From Halostella pelagica (GTDB taxonomy: Archaea; Halobacteriota; Halobacteria; Halobacteriales; Natronoarchaeaceae), in the NCBI GenBank assembly GCA_005954745.1, contig CP040678.1:1240001-1304000 (forward strand): a DNA stretch of 64,000 nucleotides, given 5' to 3'. Of the stretch, positions 49,711 to 57,375 are shown piece after piece. The number at the start of each line of letters is the position of its first letter. Within the stretch, counting starts at the first letter, position 1. The position numbers were made by a program, and so were the translations under genes. The notes below the pieces were generated by a model that saw nothing but the letters and a program-made list of their open reading frames with translations, did not search any database and was not told the DNA's origin.

Positions 49711-50052
49711 GCGGGTCTCTGGGCAATCGCCCTACTTTCACTCCGGCGAATATCCATCGACCTCCCGGAGTTCCGACCGATGATCCGTACAGGTCCGAGC
49801 GGTGACCGTTATGATTTCAGTACCGTTATCGGTTCACTGTCTACGGCGAGTTTCTGAGAAGTCAGTTCTCTGCTCTATCTCCGAGAGAGCGGGCAAGGCC
49901 CGGTAATACGCTGTTACCGACGGTCAGTAGTCTTGCGGACGCTGGTATCAGGGCGGTAAAACGGGAATAAAAGCCAGAATCGGTGGTAACGCACGTTACG
50001 TCCGGTTTCACTGCTGAATTACAATATCCCGCTACGTGTTCTGACGAGTGGT
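49711..50052 (+). promoter_or_regulatory. Leader of the FG-GAP/Gln-rich gene
   Basis: No gene is seen in these about 340 bases. A TATA-like AATAAAAG lies near 49966, and GTAACG-CA-CGTTAC (49986-49999) is an inverted repeat between it and the ATG at 50053. The same GTAACG hexamer recurs upstream of the neighbouring repeat gene, so a shared regulator is possible. Confidence 0.4.
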
Positions 50053-53000
50053 ATGACACGATATTGGAGGGTAAGTTCCTCTGCAGGAGAGAAGTGGCAA
50101 GAGAGAACGACATCTCTCTTGACACTCCTCGTGGTCGCAGCCGTCGTTGTCAGTGCGACCGCGGCGGGCGTCGGAGCGGCAGCGGGGATGAACGAAACGG
50201 ATGATTACTCGACTGCGACTGAAGCTGACCGGGCCGGTGCTACTGCCGCTGACAACTCACCCCCGAAGGGGCTGGTGAACGGCTCTTCGGCGGACACCGA
50301 GTTCATGTCGTCGGAATCGGACGACCGAGCGGGCTGGTCCGTATCGACGGCCGGCGATGTCGACGGTGACGGTGTCACAGATCTACTGGTCGGGGCACCG
50401 ACTCGGCAGGACGGAGGGGCGGTGTATCTCTTCTACGGACCGGTCGAGGCCTCGAACGTTACTCTCGAAGATGCTGACGCGGTTTTCGTCGGTACCGAAC
50501 CGGGGAGTGAGGTCGGCAGAGCCGTCGACAGTGGCGACGTGAACGGAAACGGACAAGCGGATATCGTGATCGGAGCGCCCGGCGACGAAACGCGCGGAGC
50601 GGAAGCGGGCGCAGCGTACGTGATCGACGCCAGCGATTCACCGAACGGGCGGTACACCCTCGGACCGAACGAGACGAAGATCGTCGGCGATTCCCACGAC
50701 CGGTTAGGGACCTCCGTCGACGTTCGTTCTGTCGACGACCCCGCCGTATCGAGCATCGCGGTCGGGGCTCCGGGCGATGACCGGAATCGGCGCGGGGCAG
50801 CGGTCATCGTCGCGCGGAACACGATCAACGGTACGCTGACGGTCGAGAACGCCGATTCGAGGTTAGTCGGGGAGTCGTCGGGCGACCGATCCGGTGAAGC
50901 GGTTGCCTGGGCTACCGACAGCGGCGATAACGGTTCCGAGGGCATACTGGTCGGCGCTCCCGGGCACGACGGCGGCGGATCGGATGCAGGTGCCGTCCAC
51001 GTCGTCGAAGCAACGGTTTCGGGCGAACGCTCGCTCGCGGACGCCACCGCCACACTCGAAGGTCCGCAACCGAGAGCGGAGGCGGGGACGGCAGTCACGG
51101 ACGCCGGGGACGTCGACGGGGACGGTAGCTCTGATATCCTCGTCGGTGCGCCGGGTCACGACCGGCGCGGGGACGACGCCGGTGCCGCCTACGTCGTCCA
51201 CGGTGGCGACGTGGTAGACGGAGAGACACCGCTCGCAGAGGTGGCGGCTGCGACGATCCACGGGGAGGTCCGAGGCGACCGCCTCGGACAGTCAGTCGCC
51301 GGCGGCGGAGACGTCGACTGTGACGGGTTAGCCGATGTACTGGTCGGCGCTCCGAACCACGAAGTAGCCGACGGGTCGTCTGGTGTCGCGTACCTCCTGT
51401 ACGGGCGGTCGTACGCGGGCGGGTTCGAAATCGCGAAGATCGCCGGCGGGGAGAACGCGAACCTGACCGGGACGGGCCTGGCGGTCGGGAACGTGTCGGG
51501 CGATATCGCCGACGACGTAGTTGTCGGGTCGCCCGGGATAGCTGACTCCCCGAGACAGGCGGCCGTACTCTTCGAGGGCGGCTGTGACACGGAGACACAT
51601 GACGCGGACCGACAGCAGACGGACGCCGGCGAATCTACCGATACGGACGCGTCCGAGACGTCCCGCGACGGGAGACGCGGGACGCAGGACGGCGGAACCG
51701 GCTCGGGAGACTCCGCTGGGGAGCAGGACTCCCACGGTGACGGCCAGGCCGATGACGACTCCCCGCCGACGGACGATAGCCGCTCTGACGACGAGACCGA
51801 CGACAGCGAGGATGAAACGTCCGGTGACGGCGATGATTCGCCCGGTGACGGCGATGGGGCGCCCGGTGACGGCGGAGGTGAAACTCCCGGCGACGGTGAT
51901 GAGACTCCAGGAGACGGCGATGGGACGCCCGGTGACGGCGGAGGTGAAACCCCAGGCGACGGTGACGAGACGCCCGGTGACGGTGACGACTCTCCTGGAA
52001 ACGGAGATGACTCTCCAGGAGACGGTGGGGAAACACCCGGTGACGGAGACGAGGGTGCCTCTGACCGCGGACAGACACAGGGACAAGCGGTTACCGTTAC
52101 GCAGACGCAGTGCCAGAGCCAAAGCGGCGGCGACCAGCACCAGACCCAGGACCAATCCGTCTCGCTCGCACAGGACGGACAGCAGATCAGCGGGAACGGA
52201 AGCGTTCAGGCGAACGTACAAAGCGTCAACGTCGAGCAACAGCAGTGTCAACGACAGGGTGACGGTGTCGATAACCGCCAGGCGCAGCGGCAGTTTTTAC
52301 TGATCACGTTCGCCAGCCAGAGCCAGCAACAGGGCTCCGGCGAGAACGGTGAACAGACCCAGATCCAGACGTCGACGGGCACGCAACAGCAGGCCCAGAA
52401 CCAGACGGGAAGCAATCAGAACCAGACGCAGATTCAGGTGTTCGAAGTGACGTTCTTCGGCGCACAGATCCAGCCCGCCGCGGACGGCGCGCATCGACAA
52501 CAGCAGTCCCAGTCGGTCCAGGTCGACCAGAACCAGTCCCAGGACCAGGGGACCGGCGTCGAGCAACGACAACAGCAGTACCAGCGAGTGAGCGTCGTTT
52601 ACCAGGGCCAAGAGCAAGTACAGGAGGAAGGCGGTCAGTCCCAGACCCAACAGCAGTCGGCGAACGCGAGTCAGGAACAGCAACAGGTCCAGACCGAGCG
52701 CGCGCAAAACCAATCGCAGACCGAAGAGATAGAGACGGAACAGCGACAACAACAGCGTCAGAACGCGACGAACGAGACGACGCGACAGGGCCAAAATCAG
52801 TCCATCGGTGTTTCCCAGGAGCAGGAACAGGCTCAGAGCGACGACCAGCGCCAGCGCCAGGAACAGTCAGTGAACGGAACTCAGCGCGAACAGCAGAACG
52901 GAACCGAGGGCGAACAGACCCAGAACCAGACCCAGAACGTCTCAGCCGAACAGTCACAGCAGCAGAACCAGACGGTAAACGATAGTTCGCAGTCACAAAA

Positions 53001-53685
53001 CGGAACGGTCGACGTCGGTCAGACGCAGAACCAGACACAGACAGGTAACGACAGCGAGCAGGGACAGGACGAGTCAGTCGCTGTCGACCAGGACGCGGAG
53101 CAGAACCAGTCCGAGATGACAGACAGGACTGAATCGGCTGGGAACGCGACGAATACGACGGCCGAGACGGACCGGACTGATACTGCTGAACCGACGGAAA
53201 ACGAGTCAACTGCGTCCGGCGAAGGTGGCGAGAATGGGACAACCGATTCCGCCCCGGCCGATAACGAGAACGGAACCGAGAGCGGGACAACTGATTCCGA
53301 CCCGTCCGATAACGAGAACGGATCGGCGGACTCGACCGTCGGAAACGAGAGCGTGGAAACTGAACAGCCAGTGGCGAGCGGTTCGGAACCGGACAACGGT
53401 TCTGCCGAAACCGAAACGAGTAGCGAAAACGTGTCGGAAGCGGATGAACACTTAGAGACGACGACTGAACCGAAGAATCAGTCAGACGACCGTACCCCAG
53501 CGGAGGACGGCACAGGGGACTCGCCGAACACGTCCGAATCTCTCGATACTCCGTCGGACGAGAGGACACACAACGCTTCGGGCGACGGTAACAAAACGAC
53601 CCCTAGCACCGCCGTTAACCCGAGCAGTCTCGGGTCCACGGACGTACTAACCGTGACGAAGCGGGTGAAGGAGGTCCCGGCATAG
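50053..53685 (+). CDS. Secreted FG-GAP beta-propeller protein with Gln-rich repeat array
   Basis: This 1210-aa protein has a signal peptide (LLTLLVVAAVVVSATAAGVGAA, ending about residue 45). Residues about 85-505 are seven FG-GAP/integrin-alpha-like blades (repeated DVDGDG... DILVGAP motifs with Ca-binding Asp), forming a beta-propeller adhesion head. Residues about 515-670 are a Gly/Asp/Glu/Pro linker with TPGDGDE repeats. Residues about 670-1020 are Gln-rich, with short hydrophobic strands (VSL, ITF, VTF, VSV) spaced 48, 48 and 47 codons. A Glu/Thr/Ser/Asn tail with many sequons follows. It lacks a PGF-type or membrane anchor. Probably a surface adhesin. Confidence 0.78.
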   Translation: MTRYWRVSSSAGEKWQERTTSLLTLLVVAAVVVSATAAGVGAAAGMNETDDYSTATEADRAGATAADNSPPKGLVNGSSADTEFMSSESDDRAGWSVSTAGDVDGDGVTDLLVGAPTRQDGGAVYLFYGPVEASNVTLEDADAVFVGTEPGSEVGRAVDSGDVNGNGQADIVIGAPGDETRGAEAGAAYVIDASDSPNGRYTLGPNETKIVGDSHDRLGTSVDVRSVDDPAVSSIAVGAPGDDRNRRGAAVIVARNTINGTLTVENADSRLVGESSGDRSGEAVAWATDSGDNGSEGILVGAPGHDGGGSDAGAVHVVEATVSGERSLADATATLEGPQPRAEAGTAVTDAGDVDGDGSSDILVGAPGHDRRGDDAGAAYVVHGGDVVDGETPLAEVAAATIHGEVRGDRLGQSVAGGGDVDCDGLADVLVGAPNHEVADGSSGVAYLLYGRSYAGGFEIAKIAGGENANLTGTGLAVGNVSGDIADDVVVGSPGIADSPRQAAVLFEGGCDTETHDADRQQTDAGESTDTDASETSRDGRRGTQDGGTGSGDSAGEQDSHGDGQADDDSPPTDDSRSDDETDDSEDETSGDGDDSPGDGDGAPGDGGGETPGDGDETPGDGDGTPGDGGGETPGDGDETPGDGDDSPGNGDDSPGDGGETPGDGDEGASDRGQTQGQAVTVTQTQCQSQSGGDQHQTQDQSVSLAQDGQQISGNGSVQANVQSVNVEQQQCQRQGDGVDNRQAQRQFLLITFASQSQQQGSGENGEQTQIQTSTGTQQQAQNQTGSNQNQTQIQVFEVTFFGAQIQPAADGAHRQQQSQSVQVDQNQSQDQGTGVEQRQQQYQRVSVVYQGQEQVQEEGGQSQTQQQSANASQEQQQVQTERAQNQSQTEEIETEQRQQQRQNATNETTRQGQNQSIGVSQEQEQAQSDDQRQRQEQSVNGTQREQQNGTEGEQTQNQTQNVSAEQSQQQNQTVNDSSQSQNGTVDVGQTQNQTQTGNDSEQGQDESVAVDQDAEQNQSEMTDRTESAGNATNTTAETDRTDTAEPTENESTASGEGGENGTTDSAPADNENGTESGTTDSDPSDNENGSADSTVGNESVETEQPVASGSEPDNGSAETETSSENVSEADEHLETTTEPKNQSDDRTPAEDGTGDSPNTSESLDTPSDERTHNASGDGNKTTPSTAVNPSSLGSTDVLTVTKRVKEVPA

Positions 53686-53724: not shown

Positions 53725-53852
53725 CGTTACTAACCCAGGTAACGCCTATTGGTTTTCTTAGTAACGATTGTTGTACGTATATTTAAAACTCATAACAAAG
53801 TGGGATTCTCTGAACGTTGTTCTCGGTGGAGTCTACCACCAACTGATCAAAT
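53725..53852 (+). promoter_or_regulatory. Promoter region of the 904-aa repeat protein
   Basis: CGTTAC (53725-53730) and GTAACG (53739-53744) form an inverted repeat, and GTAACG occurs again at 53761. TATATTTAAAA near 53777-53787 is a strong TATA box about 65 bases before the ATG. The region is AT-rich against its surroundings. The hexamer is shared with the leader of the upstream gene. Confidence 0.5.
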
Positions 53853-56567
53853 ATGAGAGAGAGAATACCAGCATATCGTCTCGTAGCAGCCCTATTCGCC
53901 GTTCTAGTCGGAGCGGGAATGTTGCTATCGGGCACGGGCGTCGTGGCTGCGAACAGTGCACAGGACGACTGTCAAGACAAAGTACAGATCGTCGACGGGT
54001 CGCAGACGGCGGAACAGAACGCTCAGGGCGTCGATAACGACCAACAACAATCTGCCAACGTCGACGGCGACCTGATGCAAACCCAGGGTTCTAGCGGAGA
54101 CGACAACTGTCAGGAGGAATCGCAAACGCTCTACTACCAACAGAGCCAGGAACAGTGGGTCATCCAGGGCGACGATAACGAGCAGATCAGCGGTCAGGGC
54201 GCTCTCGTCTTCTACACGCAGGACCAGGGCGCGAGCGGCGACGATAACGACCAGAGCGCCAGTCAAAGCGGTAGCGTTTCGGAAGATCAGGTCCAGTACG
54301 TCGTCCTCGGTACGGGCAATGAACAGCTATCTGATCAGGGGGCTGCTCAGGCTCTAGAGCAATCTCAGGCAGCGGCCGGTGACGACAACGACCAGAGCGC
54401 CGAGCAGAACAACAACGAGGTCGGTCAGTTCCAGGTCCAGCTAGCGATCGGCGGCAATAACAACGATCAGGGTGCCGGTCAAAGCGGCGTTCAGGTCCTC
54501 CAGCAGGACCAGAGCGCAAGCGGCGACGACAACGACCAGACCGCCGAGCAGAACAACAACGGGATCAACCAACAGCAGGTCCAGCTGGTCATCTTCGGCA
54601 ACAACAACGACCAGGACGCTACGCAGGACGCTGAACAGATCTTCGGCCAGTCACAGAGCGCAAGCGGCGACGGCAACGACCAGACCGCCGAACAGAACGA
54701 CAACGATGTCGACCAACAGCAGGTCCAGTTAGTCGTCTTCGGCGACGACAACGACCAGAGTGCCGGCCAGAGCGCGAGCCAGTCGCTCAGCCAGTCCCAG
54801 AGCGCTGACGGCGACGGCAACGACCAGACCGCCGAACAGAACAACAACGACATCGAGCAACAGCAGGCACAGCTGGTCCTCTTCGGCGACAACAACGAGC
54901 AGTCGTCCGGCCAGACCGGTGCACAGAGCGGCAGCCAGGCTCAGAACGTCGATAACGGCGACGACAACGACCAGGACGCCGATAGCGAGCAAAACATCGA
55001 CCAGGGAAGCGACCAGCAGGCTGGCGGCGATTCCAACCTGCAGGACAGCGACCAAACCGCTGGCCAGGCAAGCGGTCAGGGTCAGGGAGTGACCGACGGT
55101 GACGACAACGACCAGGACGCTGCGAATGATCAGGACGCTAACCAGGACATCGAACAAGACACTGCCGGCGTCAGAAACGACCAGGACAGCTACCAGGACA
55201 GCAACCAGGGTAGCGGCCAGGGTCAAGGAGTCACGAACGGCGACGATAACAGCCAGAGCAACGACGCCGATCAGGACTCAGAGCAGGGCAGCGACCAGGA
55301 CAGCGGAGGAATCTCTAACGATCAGCACAGCAAACAGCACAGCAACCAGGGCAGCGGCCAGGGTCAAGGAGTCACGAACGGCGACGACAACAGCCAGAGC
55401 AACGACGCCAAACAGCACAACGACCAGAACAACGAACAAGACAGCGACAGTGTGATAGACGATCAGGAAAGCAAACAGGACAACGACCAGAGCAACAGCC
55501 AGGGTCAAGGTATCGCTGACGGCGACGACAACAGCCAGAGCAACGACGCCAAACAGCACAACGACCAGAACAGCGACCAAGAAAGCAGCGGCGGACTGAA
55601 CAACCAGGAGAACCACCAGAATAACGGTCAGAACAGTAACCAGGGTCAAGGTGTCGCTGACGGCGACGACAACAGTCAGAGCAACGACGCCAAACAGACC
55701 AACGACCAGACCAACGACCAGGACACCGACGGCGAACTGAACAATCAGGAAAGCGATCAAGACAGCGAGCAGTACAACGACCAGGGTCAAGGTGTCGCTG
55801 ACGGCGACGACAACAGCCAGAGCAACGAAGACGACCAGCACGGTAATCAAAACAGCGACCAAGACAGCGACGGCGAACTGAACTACCAGGACAACAACCA
55901 GAGCGTCGATCAGAGCAGCGGCCAGAGTCAAGGCGTCTCCGACGGCGACGATAACAGTCAGAGCAACGACGCCACTCAGAAAGCGGATCAGAATAGCGAA
56001 CAAGACAACGACGGCGAACTGAACAACCAGGACAACGACCAAGACAGCACCCAGACCACCGGACAGAACCAAGGAGTCTCCGACGGCGACGGCAACGACC
56101 AGGACGCTGATAGCGATCTGGACTCCAACCAGAACAGCAACCAAGACAGCGACGGCGTACTGAACAACCAGGAGAGCGACCAGACCGCCGGACAGGACGC
56201 CAACCAGGACCAGAACGTCGTGAACGGGGACGACAACGACCAGACCGCCGACCAGACCAGCGACATCGACCAGAACTCCGATCAGGAGGCTGACGTCGCG
56301 CTGAACAACCAGGAGTCCGAACAGACCGCCGAGACGAACCAGGATCAGGATCAGGTCGTTCAGAACGGAGACAACAACGAGCAGACTGCCGAACAGACCG
56401 CCGAGATAGACCAGGAGCAAGAACAGGACGCCGACGGTGACGAGGACCAGAGCCAGTCGAGCAACGCGCAGATAGATCAGGACCAGAACCAACAGACCAG
56501 CGGAGACGACAACGAGCAGGAACAGGAGCAGTCGTCTTCGGTCAGTACCAGCCAGACTCAGGATTAG
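53853..56567 (+). CDS. Secreted 47/48-residue Asn/Gln/Asp repeat protein (amyloid-like candidate)
   Basis: This 904-aa protein has a signal peptide (residues 1-33: RLVAALFAVLVGAGMLLSGTG, then VVAANSA). Two Cys residues (40 and 86) occur only at the N-terminus. Everything from about residue 80 is repeat: a recurring G-D-x-x-N-x-Q cluster, followed by Gln/Asn runs and, in the first half, a hydrophobic strand (VQLVIFGNNNDQ type). The G anchors lie at exact codon spacing: 47, 47, 48, 48, 48, 49, then ten intervals of 47, then 45. Regular Q/N ladders resemble curlin (CsgA/CsgB) beta-solenoid repeats, so an extracellular amyloid is a reasonable guess. No membrane anchor is visible. Confidence 0.75.
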   Translation: MRERIPAYRLVAALFAVLVGAGMLLSGTGVVAANSAQDDCQDKVQIVDGSQTAEQNAQGVDNDQQQSANVDGDLMQTQGSSGDDNCQEESQTLYYQQSQEQWVIQGDDNEQISGQGALVFYTQDQGASGDDNDQSASQSGSVSEDQVQYVVLGTGNEQLSDQGAAQALEQSQAAAGDDNDQSAEQNNNEVGQFQVQLAIGGNNNDQGAGQSGVQVLQQDQSASGDDNDQTAEQNNNGINQQQVQLVIFGNNNDQDATQDAEQIFGQSQSASGDGNDQTAEQNDNDVDQQQVQLVVFGDDNDQSAGQSASQSLSQSQSADGDGNDQTAEQNNNDIEQQQAQLVLFGDNNEQSSGQTGAQSGSQAQNVDNGDDNDQDADSEQNIDQGSDQQAGGDSNLQDSDQTAGQASGQGQGVTDGDDNDQDAANDQDANQDIEQDTAGVRNDQDSYQDSNQGSGQGQGVTNGDDNSQSNDADQDSEQGSDQDSGGISNDQHSKQHSNQGSGQGQGVTNGDDNSQSNDAKQHNDQNNEQDSDSVIDDQESKQDNDQSNSQGQGIADGDDNSQSNDAKQHNDQNSDQESSGGLNNQENHQNNGQNSNQGQGVADGDDNSQSNDAKQTNDQTNDQDTDGELNNQESDQDSEQYNDQGQGVADGDDNSQSNEDDQHGNQNSDQDSDGELNYQDNNQSVDQSSGQSQGVSDGDDNSQSNDATQKADQNSEQDNDGELNNQDNDQDSTQTTGQNQGVSDGDGNDQDADSDLDSNQNSNQDSDGVLNNQESDQTAGQDANQDQNVVNGDDNDQTADQTSDIDQNSDQEADVALNNQESEQTAETNQDQDQVVQNGDNNEQTAEQTAEIDQEQEQDADGDEDQSQSSNAQIDQDQNQQTSGDDNEQEQEQSSSVSTSQTQD
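54096..56516 (+). repeat. 18-unit protein-coding repeat array, 141/144-bp period
   Basis: I aligned the G codon of each G-D cluster by position: 54096, 54237, 54378, 54522, 54666, 54810, 54957, 55098, then every 141 bases through 55239, 55380, 55521, 55662, 55803, 55944, 56085, 56226 and 56367, and finally 56502. Ten successive spacings are exactly 141 bp. First-half units differ from second-half units (hydrophobic strand lost), suggesting two waves of duplication. Confidence 0.9.
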
Positions 56568-56811: not shown

Positions 56812-57375
56812 ATGGGGGCCGAACTGGAAGATATGGATGTTTCAATGGATCGTGTGAAAAAGGAACTGAGGAACTCTCGCCGTAGATACACCCTTTTCTA
56901 CGTCAAAAAGAACGACGGGAGCGCGTCGCTGGACGACGTAGTCGACAAGATAACAGCCTGGGAGAACAACGGTGAAGTCCCCGAAAGCAAGACCTCACAT
57001 CGGAAATCCGTGTATAGCTCCCTCTATCAACGACATCTACCCAGGCTGGTAGAGTTAGGTATTCTCTCGTATAACCGAGAGAACCGAACGCTTTCGCTCA
57101 CTGATGTGGGGAAGCAGATCTCCCTCAAAGTCGCAACGCACGATCACGACTGTCGGTCTTTCTCTAAGCTGTTTTTCGCGCTGGGTATTCTCAACGCGGT
57201 CATTCTACTACTGGGCGGGTTGAAGGTAGTGTCCCCGCTCGCAGTTTTTACCTGGGGCTCTATCATCATCACCGTCTTCCTGATCTTGGCCCTCTTGCAG
57301 TTCTACGATTACCGATCCTGGAAACGGGCGTTCGAAAACAAAGGTCCGGATTACGTCGTCGAGATCGACAGGTGA
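56812..57375 (+). CDS. Winged-helix protein with two membrane helices (DUF7344-type)
   Basis: This 187-aa protein has an N-terminal winged helix (about 10-105: KKELRNSRRRYTLFYV, SLYQRHLPRLVELGILSYNRE, TLSLTDVGKQI). Two membrane helices follow (FALGILNAVILLLGGLKVV, FTWGSIIITVFLILALLQFYDY). Haloarchaea encode many such membrane-tethered regulators. It lies about 245 bp downstream of the repeat gene on the same strand and may regulate the adhesin locus; this is inference from position. Confidence 0.78.
   Translation: MGAELEDMDVSMDRVKKELRNSRRRYTLFYVKKNDGSASLDDVVDKITAWENNGEVPESKTSHRKSVYSSLYQRHLPRLVELGILSYNRENRTLSLTDVGKQISLKVATHDHDCRSFSKLFFALGILNAVILLLGGLKVVSPLAVFTWGSIIITVFLILALLQFYDYRSWKRAFENKGPDYVVEIDR

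Follow-up and report, generated by a model that had tools for sequence, protein, structure and literature searches.

A Two-Part Ladder-Protein System

The DNA under study is a stretch of 64,000 nucleotides from the haloarchaeon Halostella pelagica (the window), which lies within a 3.2-Mb contig of a genome of 3.94 Mb in four contigs. It contains a gene for a 904-residue protein built of a short tandem repeat (the repeat protein), preceded by a gene for a larger protein in which an FG-GAP β-propeller is joined to a second Gln-rich ladder domain (the partner) and followed by a gene for a DUF7344 winged-helix protein (Table 1). The repeat protein and its partner are a real, conserved, and previously unannotated two-part system. 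A preliminary description of this DNA had dealt with the repeat gene; the partner gene, a promoter element shared by the two genes, and the dedicated DUF7344 gene are new.

Table 1. Features of the repeat-protein locus (positions in the window)
Feature	Position	Strand	Remarks
Palindrome GTAACGCACGTTAC, partner gene	49986–49999	+	67 bp before the partner ATG; ATAACAA part degenerate in the source genome
Partner protein	50053–53685	+	1210 aa; signal peptide, FG-GAP β-propeller, D/G/E-rich linker, Gln-ladder domain, S/T/E-rich tail
Partner Gln-ladder domain	52018–53145	+	Residues 656–1031; 23-residue period; enriched N-glycosylation sequons
Composite promoter element, repeat gene	53761–53799	+	GTAACGATTGTTGT at 53761–53774 and ATAACAAA at 53792–53799, 92 and 61 bp upstream of the ATG
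Repeat protein, candidate major subunit	53853–56567	+	ATG start; 904 aa; predicted secreted Gln/Asn-ladder β-solenoid
Signal peptide	53853–53951	+	Residues 1–33; kept in homologues; cleavage probably near A33/N34, judged by eye
Two-Cys stretch	53970–54110	+	C40 codon 53970–53972, C86 codon 54108–54110; pair kept in homologues
N-terminal coils	54027–54956	+	Residues 59–368; units of 23/24, then 23/25 residues; QVQLVIF strand in every second coil; AlphaFold2 blocks at pLDDT 70–88
C-terminal coils	54957–56366	+	Residues 369–838; ten exact 47-aa doublets (23 + 24); low-confidence all-β model
Last coils	56367–56564	+	Residues 839–904; protein stops within the repeat; no cap domain or membrane anchor
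DUF7344 winged-helix protein, candidate regulator	56812–57375	+	Pfam 2.1e-21; C-terminal hydrophobic segments; locus-specific clade

A recount bore out the earlier account of the open reading frame, with its signal peptide, its composition dominated by Asn, Gln, Asp, Gly, and Ser (183 Gln, 153 Asp, 109 Asn, 100 Ser, and 91 Gly), and its exactly two Cys. The signal peptide is the only hydrophobic stretch in the hydropathy profile, as the claim of secretion would have it, and the C-terminal sequence SSSVSTSQTQD is kept in close homologues. Searches of Pfam, NCBIfam, PADLOC, and the sequences of the Protein Data Bank (PDB) with the repeat protein returned nothing, and a literature search, in which coverage of subscription journals was limited, found no paper describing the repeat protein or the partner.

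The Repeat Unit Is a Coil of 23 to 25 Residues

The preliminary description rested on 18 clusters of the type GDxxN, and its counts are correct. The clusters begin at residues 82, 129, 176, 224, 272, 320, 369, 416, 463, 510, 557, 604, 651, 698, 745, 792, 839, and 884. From residue 369 to residue 839 there are ten steps of exactly 47 residues (141 bp), and the steps before residue 369 are of 47, 47, 48, 48, 48, and 49 residues. Tandem Repeats Finder likewise reported 141-bp arrays with 0–1% indels and matches of ~76%, and the protein is 42% identical to itself at a lag of 47, well beyond what chance would give.

The 47/48-residue repeat is not, however, the structural unit, as had been proposed. 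A motif G..N.Q starts at residues 59, 82, 106, 129, 153, 176, 201, 224, and so on, in steps of 23, 24, 23, 24, 23, 25, 23, 25 ... residues in the first half of the protein and of 23 and 24 in the second, and splits nearly every 47/48-residue unit; the related pattern G..N.{5}Q occurs 25 times, as compared with 2.1 +/- 1.4 times in shuffled sequences. The intermediate motif was missed at first because in the second half it has drifted to, for example, GELN or GVLN. Moreover, homologues from another family (loci L040, L041, and L042 of our collection) have the plain unit GDDNEQEAEQENEAEQEVEQEAD, of 23 or 24 residues. Because the motif recurs midway through nearly every unit and several homologues show a plain period of 23–24, we conclude that 47/48 is a doublet and that the true unit is a coil of 23–25 residues (G-D-D-N-x-Q-x-A-x-Q...Q), present about 36 times per protein.

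The array is not a product of recent slippage, in that the ten 47-mers, though identical in length, have a mean identity of only 52% in amino acids and 67% in nucleotides. The comparison indicates that coil length was held while the sequence drifted.

Coil Pattern and Predicted Fold

The full set of homologues yielded 91 units with a length of exactly 23 or 24 residues; in these, Asn, Gln, Ala, Gln, Ala/Asn, Gln, and so on occupy positions 4, 6, 8 ... 22. Acidic residues account for 0–6% of the even positions from 4 to 22 and for 55–100% of the odd positions from 5 to 23. The protein of the window exhibits the same alternation: acidic residues stand at 7 of 274 even and 90 of 245 odd positions (Fisher p 9e-26), and Gln or Asn at 168 of 274 even and 36 of 245 odd positions (p 8e-29). 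Every second coil of the N-terminal half carries the hydrophobic strand QVQLVIF at fixed places, and Gln, Asn, Ser, and Ala occupy the same inward places in the C-terminal half. Thus, the earlier remark that the second half loses its hydrophobic strand holds, but the core itself is not lost; it is swapped for Gln, Asn, and small residues at the same alternating positions. Regular coil length, alternation between inward and outward residues, and turn residues are the features of the β-solenoid class, and all are present here. Judged from the sequence, an alternation so unbroken, with each coil turning once at G-D-D, marks a β-solenoid whose interior is stacked with Gln/Asn ladders and whose outer face is acidic. 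The acidic outward residues, together with a net charge of −189 over 871 residues, agree with the proposal that the exterior is suited to high salt.

We obtained an AlphaFold2 model of the mature protein, using six homologues in the input. The model is all-β and without helices, its strands being interrupted at the GDD turns; the mean predicted local distance difference test score (pLDDT) is 58 and the predicted template-modeling score is 0.54. A pLDDT of 70–90 is reached by 219 residues, mostly in N-terminal blocks at 70–88, and the model is weak beyond these. The best match of the model to a solved structure, found with VIA-align, was to the β-helix protein SufB (Z 17.6, root-mean-square deviation 4.8 over 252 residues), with the following rows at 9.5 or below. 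We regard a β-solenoid fold as moderately supported by the model, with no particular family favored.

Could the repeat protein instead be disordered, a polyanionic polymer secreted as a hydration or matrix mucin, with repeats that hold water and cations but have no defined fold? Most of the protein is Gln, Asn, Asp, Gly, and Ser, half of the model lies below a pLDDT of 60, and 318 residues lie below 50, as would be expected of such a polymer. The coil length is, however, fixed, the in/out alternation is strict, and the hydrophobic strands of the N-terminal half, much of which is modeled at a pLDDT of 70–88, are at fixed places. Furthermore, between the repeat genes of three related genomes there are 0.05–0.09 nonsynonymous substitutions per site (dN), as compared with 0.44–0.57 synonymous substitutions per site (dS), over about 1000 codons. 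Such purifying selection with few indels is not what is seen in disordered spacers, which tolerate indels, and we consider this explanation improbable.

The Repeat Gene Is a Patchy Accessory Locus

We scanned 392 sampled genomes of the Halobacteriales for the repeat protein, scoring only five candidates per genome, so that carriers may have been missed. There were eleven matches, of which the weakest, in genome G375, was dropped; its neighborhood held no Gln-rich gene. The ten clear carriers, the source genome included, belong to five genera in four families. None of the four other genomes of the source genus, and none of the sampled genomes in the rest of its family, had the gene; in two carrier genera it was found in three of eight and three of 18 genomes. 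A sample scan of the whole phylum added one weak partial match. We found no relative in IMG/VR or PLSDB and set aside an origin in a virus or plasmid.

The locus is thus a patchy accessory one. Halobacteria archaeon HArc-gm2, a close relative, shares all three genes and their order, and the genes on either side are unrelated. In genome G264 (L038:10167–11564) stops or frameshifts break the repeat gene, whereas the genes for the partner and the DUF7344 protein appear intact. One genus has, next to each instance of the locus, a small secreted protein made of two similar domains in tandem (L037:6671–7450, L039:6571–7332, and L041:12166–12969), and a CAP-domain protein also adjoins the locus in two of these three cases. 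Neither protein adjoins the locus of the window; both are possible accessory factors.

A Partner with a Matching Ladder Period

The partner matches the Pfam family FG-GAP (PF01839) in five stretches (4.9e-29; 100.1 bits against a cut-off of 22.1), which carry DxDxDG-type motifs, and so belongs with the FG-GAP proteins. It differs from them in being fused to a Gln-ladder domain of 375 residues with a 23-residue period and dense N-glycosylation sequons. Across four families this domain is 44–48% identical, and dozens of Gln columns are invariant, as are two Cys that lie 45 residues from each other; the Cys of the repeat protein are 46 apart. The Gln/Asn pattern of the domain has its autocorrelation peak at 23, and in the second half of the domain the strands of a structure model start every 21–25 residues, at a pLDDT of only 50–63. 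On this evidence the two ladder domains share a matching period; we do not claim homology between them.

The partner follows the repeat protein across genomes. Strong matches to the partner domain were found in seven of the 392 genomes, and all seven have the repeat protein (hypergeometric p 4e-13, uncorrected for relatedness or linkage). The other three carriers have, near the repeat gene, a different secreted Gln-ladder protein with repeats of about 48 residues (for example, L032 11260–12543), which occurs in three of 382 genomes, exactly those three carriers. One of them (L040) has a second, paralogous repeat gene adjoined by a second copy of the alternative partner. Since seven carriers have the FG-GAP partner and three the alternative protein, every carrier has a ladder-bearing partner.

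The partner is probably N-glycosylated, judging by its sequons. The ladder domains of all six homologues tested have 16–29 N-X-S/T sequons, as compared with 4–8 in shuffled sequences, and that of the window has 19, where composition predicts 4.4. The repeat protein of the window has one such sequon, as compared with 16 in shuffled sequences, and most, but not all, of its homologues are likewise poor; part of this deficit is due to the fixed N-[DES]-Q motif.

A Shared Promoter Element and a Candidate Regulator

Upstream of the repeat genes is a composite element consisting of the palindrome GTAAY-N4-RTTAC, a spacer of about 17 bp, and the sequence ATAACAA, the last lying 55–63 bp ahead of the start codon. 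In L002, L036, L037, L039, and L041 the composite also precedes the partner gene, 71 bp ahead of its ATG, and the occurrences of the composite upstream of repeat and partner genes span four families. We scanned roughly 330 kb, comprising the window and 18 loci (some overlapping in content), with a relaxed pattern and found 15 matches, ten at repeat genes and five at FG-GAP partner genes and none elsewhere in the scanned loci; Markov controls modeled on the window predict 0.05 per 64 kb. The pattern was derived from the scanned upstream regions, so this discovery set is no independent evidence for the sites; the informative parts are the absence of the element elsewhere and its presence before two unrelated genes. 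A scan for bacterial σ70 promoters was uninformative for archaeal DNA.

Extra GTTAC/GTAAC half-sites or whole palindromes were seen 20–60 bp upstream of the composite in the window (53725–53744) and in L002, L032, and L034; those of L002 are two palindromes 22 bp apart.

The product of the gene downstream of the repeat gene is a member of the DUF7344 family (PF24035; 76.5 bits against a cut-off of 27.8), and DUF7344 genes adjoin the repeat gene in carriers from three families. The source genome has 29 copies, so that the chance of one lying within 3 kb is 0.04 per locus. The DUF7344 proteins of the locus from these three families form a single clade (support 0.89), and 20 other copies of the source genome fall outside it. 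The repeat and partner genes are perhaps switched on together through the composite element by the adjacent DUF7344 protein, as its position and clade suggest. As a separate observation, 29 genes in one genome is an unusually expanded regulator family.

Comparison with Curli and Other Systems

The preliminary description knew of no described family with this period. The nearest published are the curlin repeats, whose length averages 23 +/- 5 residues and whose defining motifs are QX10Q and N-x-Psi-x-Psi-x-Q (PMC10192328). Like CsgA and CsgB, the repeat protein is secreted and has coils of ~23 residues with Asn/Gln ladders beside a small or hydrophobic core, and like them it is a candidate major subunit encoded beside a second ladder protein, with a variable number of coils (PMC10192328). 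It is unlike them in having QX9Q rather than QX10Q, one Gly turn per coil rather than the two X-G-X-X arcs of curli, a strongly acidic exterior, a propeller partner, and no outer membrane.

Is the repeat protein nevertheless a true homologue of CsgA, acquired from bacteria and adapted to salt? The tandem coils, of 23, 24, or 25 residues, fall within or next to the 22–24 of curli and are in effect equal in length, and one archaeal protein with curli-like repeats at regular spacing was noted by Dueholm et al. (2012; PMC3521004). The first curlin motif is partly matched, N-x-Psi-x-Psi-x-Q fitting N4-x-Q6-x-A8-x-Q10 provided that the first core place may be Gln, but the second is unmatched. QX10Q is in fact depleted (20, as compared with 37.6 in shuffled sequences) and QX9Q enriched (62, as compared with 37.4); all homologues tested have the same bias, and CsgA and CsgB the opposite one, so that the core spacing is not that of curlin. 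Neither the repeat protein nor three homologues matched Curlin_rpt (PF07012) at E values up to 10, nor did anything in the whole source genome, whereas CsgA scored 1.4e-27 in the same search; as HMMER filters may drop biased sequences, this negative lowers the case for membership and is compatible with remote descent. An hhalign comparison with CsgA/CsgB was not significant (probability 0.2%), and the best candidate for CsgG in the source genome, at 10.5 bits, was below the cut-off of 20.8 (CsgE and CsgF were not searched). Thus, as had been stated earlier, the protein is not a sequence homologue of curli: it appears curli-like in outline and lacks the sequence features of the family, and descent from CsgA, already largely refuted, strikes us as very improbable.

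Two archaeal systems also invite comparison. The sheath protein SH of Methanospirillum hungatei is, like the repeat protein, an archaeal extracellular protein, and its β-arches are stacked in an amyloid-like sheath array (PMC10593813), the repeat protein being a predicted solenoid. SH has, however, anti-parallel β-arches, a helical cap domain, and sheath rings, and no short tandem repeat, a description that sets it apart from a tandem 23-residue ladder without a cap domain. Biofilm material of Haloferax volcanii binds Congo red and thioflavin T, and for its gene the paper goes no further than suggesting HVO_1403 (PMC4180959). This putative amyloid is alike in its halophilic archaeal origin.

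A Putative Haloarchaeal Fiber

We propose that the repeat protein is the major subunit of an acidic, salt-adapted extracellular fiber with a glycosylated anchor or nucleator, a reading that we consider evenly balanced between right and wrong; for polymerization itself the odds are likewise about even. The protein would be exported, in all likelihood by the Sec route, and its approximately 36 coils would wind into a β-solenoid with a turn at each G-D-D. Side chains at positions 4, 6, 8, 10 ... 22 would point inward and stack as Asn/Gln ladders, and the alternate residues, rich in Asp, Glu, and Ser, would point outward and form a polyanionic surface fit for molar salt; these acidic outer ladders would depend for their stability on molar cations in the habitat. 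Because the mature protein appears to be solenoid throughout, lacking both a cap domain and a membrane segment, it would be open at both edges, and subunits could stack end to end, like curlin. The partner would be the likely cell-side anchor or nucleator: its same-period ladder would dock on or start the stack, and its propeller would hold the stack to the cell or to other surfaces. Both genes would be co-activated through GTAAY-N4-RTTAC / ATAACAA, perhaps with the DUF7344 protein acting at this target, and the fiber may serve in biofilm or cell contact.

An alternative to this proposal is a β-solenoid surface protein that does not polymerize but serves as a rod, spacer, or adhesin, as a monomer or in a small complex with the FG-GAP partner. 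With about 36 coils at 0.48 nm each, the repeat protein is already long, roughly 17 nm; many long β-solenoids are monomeric adhesins, and autotransporter passengers are among the weak structural matches. The propeller of the partner, too, is an adhesion-type fold, FG-GAP propellers having a known role in integrin alpha chains. The repeat protein has, however, no cap domain at either end and no anchor of its own, and a separate, co-regulated partner with a matching ladder period is more simply explained by end-to-end docking. Coil number is also free to vary among the homologues (814–1097 residues), as in curlin subunits. On balance we hold the monomeric rod to be unlikely, while giving it real weight.

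Several results weigh against the fiber proposal. One fixed 904-residue solenoid could serve as a monomer, and the absence of a cap domain, being read from the sequence, says nothing direct about open edges. Three of the five AlphaFold2 models have a mean pLDDT of about 30, so that only two are comparable, and residues 490–700, in the middle of the C-terminal half, fall below 50. Foldseek found no significant match for the repeat protein model in the PDB or among viral models. The alternation, the coil period, and the all-β model support the earlier suggestion of a β-solenoid with Gln/Asn ladders; the Foldseek result and the low pLDDT of the C-terminal half do not. The structure model of the partner is poor (mean pLDDT 44) and usable for strand spacing only, and a profile–profile comparison of the repeat protein with the partner was not significant (probability 7%). 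Finally, the case is computational throughout: the sequences show period, alternation, conservation, linkage, co-occurrence, and a shared element; polymerization, anchoring, the target of the regulator, and a biofilm or contact role are inferred.

A fuller version of the proposal is a self-contained two-protein functional-amyloid system that evolved independently of curli, in which a major Gln/Asn-ladder subunit with an acidic exterior is combined with a co-regulated, N-glycosylated Gln-ladder anchor or nucleator (with an FG-GAP or other N-terminal domain), a dedicated DUF7344 regulator, and a GTAAY-N4-RTTAC operator in a cassette that has moved between families. This we advance tentatively, as possible but somewhat doubtful. 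Haloarchaeal biofilms stain for amyloid-like material for which no gene is established (PMC4180959), and the locus narrows the search to a few genes, a promoter element, and certain lineages. If fibers do form, nature would have arrived at the Gln/Asn-ladder fiber a second time, here with an acidic exterior able to assemble in molar salt; such fibers would help to explain how repulsive surfaces stack and could be of use in salt-stable protein materials.

Other Gln-Ladder Proteins of Haloarchaea

Weak matches to the partner profile in other genomes proved to come from another family, a common one made up of large DUF7282/CARDB proteins, and were rejected. Common haloarchaeal surface proteins of about 1100–1900 residues carry another Gln-ladder repeat, QSQxANVxQIQAAAQGAAxGAL (L161:2608–6570, L162:1170–4775, and L119:501–4991). 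Proteins of this type had matches in 122 of 382 genomes, the source genome included, and DUF7282 and CARDB domains were found in the one copy checked. A BioY-like/ABC transporter operon lies beside the gene in three genomes. A protein of 226 residues (L121:4986–5666, minus strand) consists almost purely of this type of repeat behind a Tat-like signal and has no match in Pfam.

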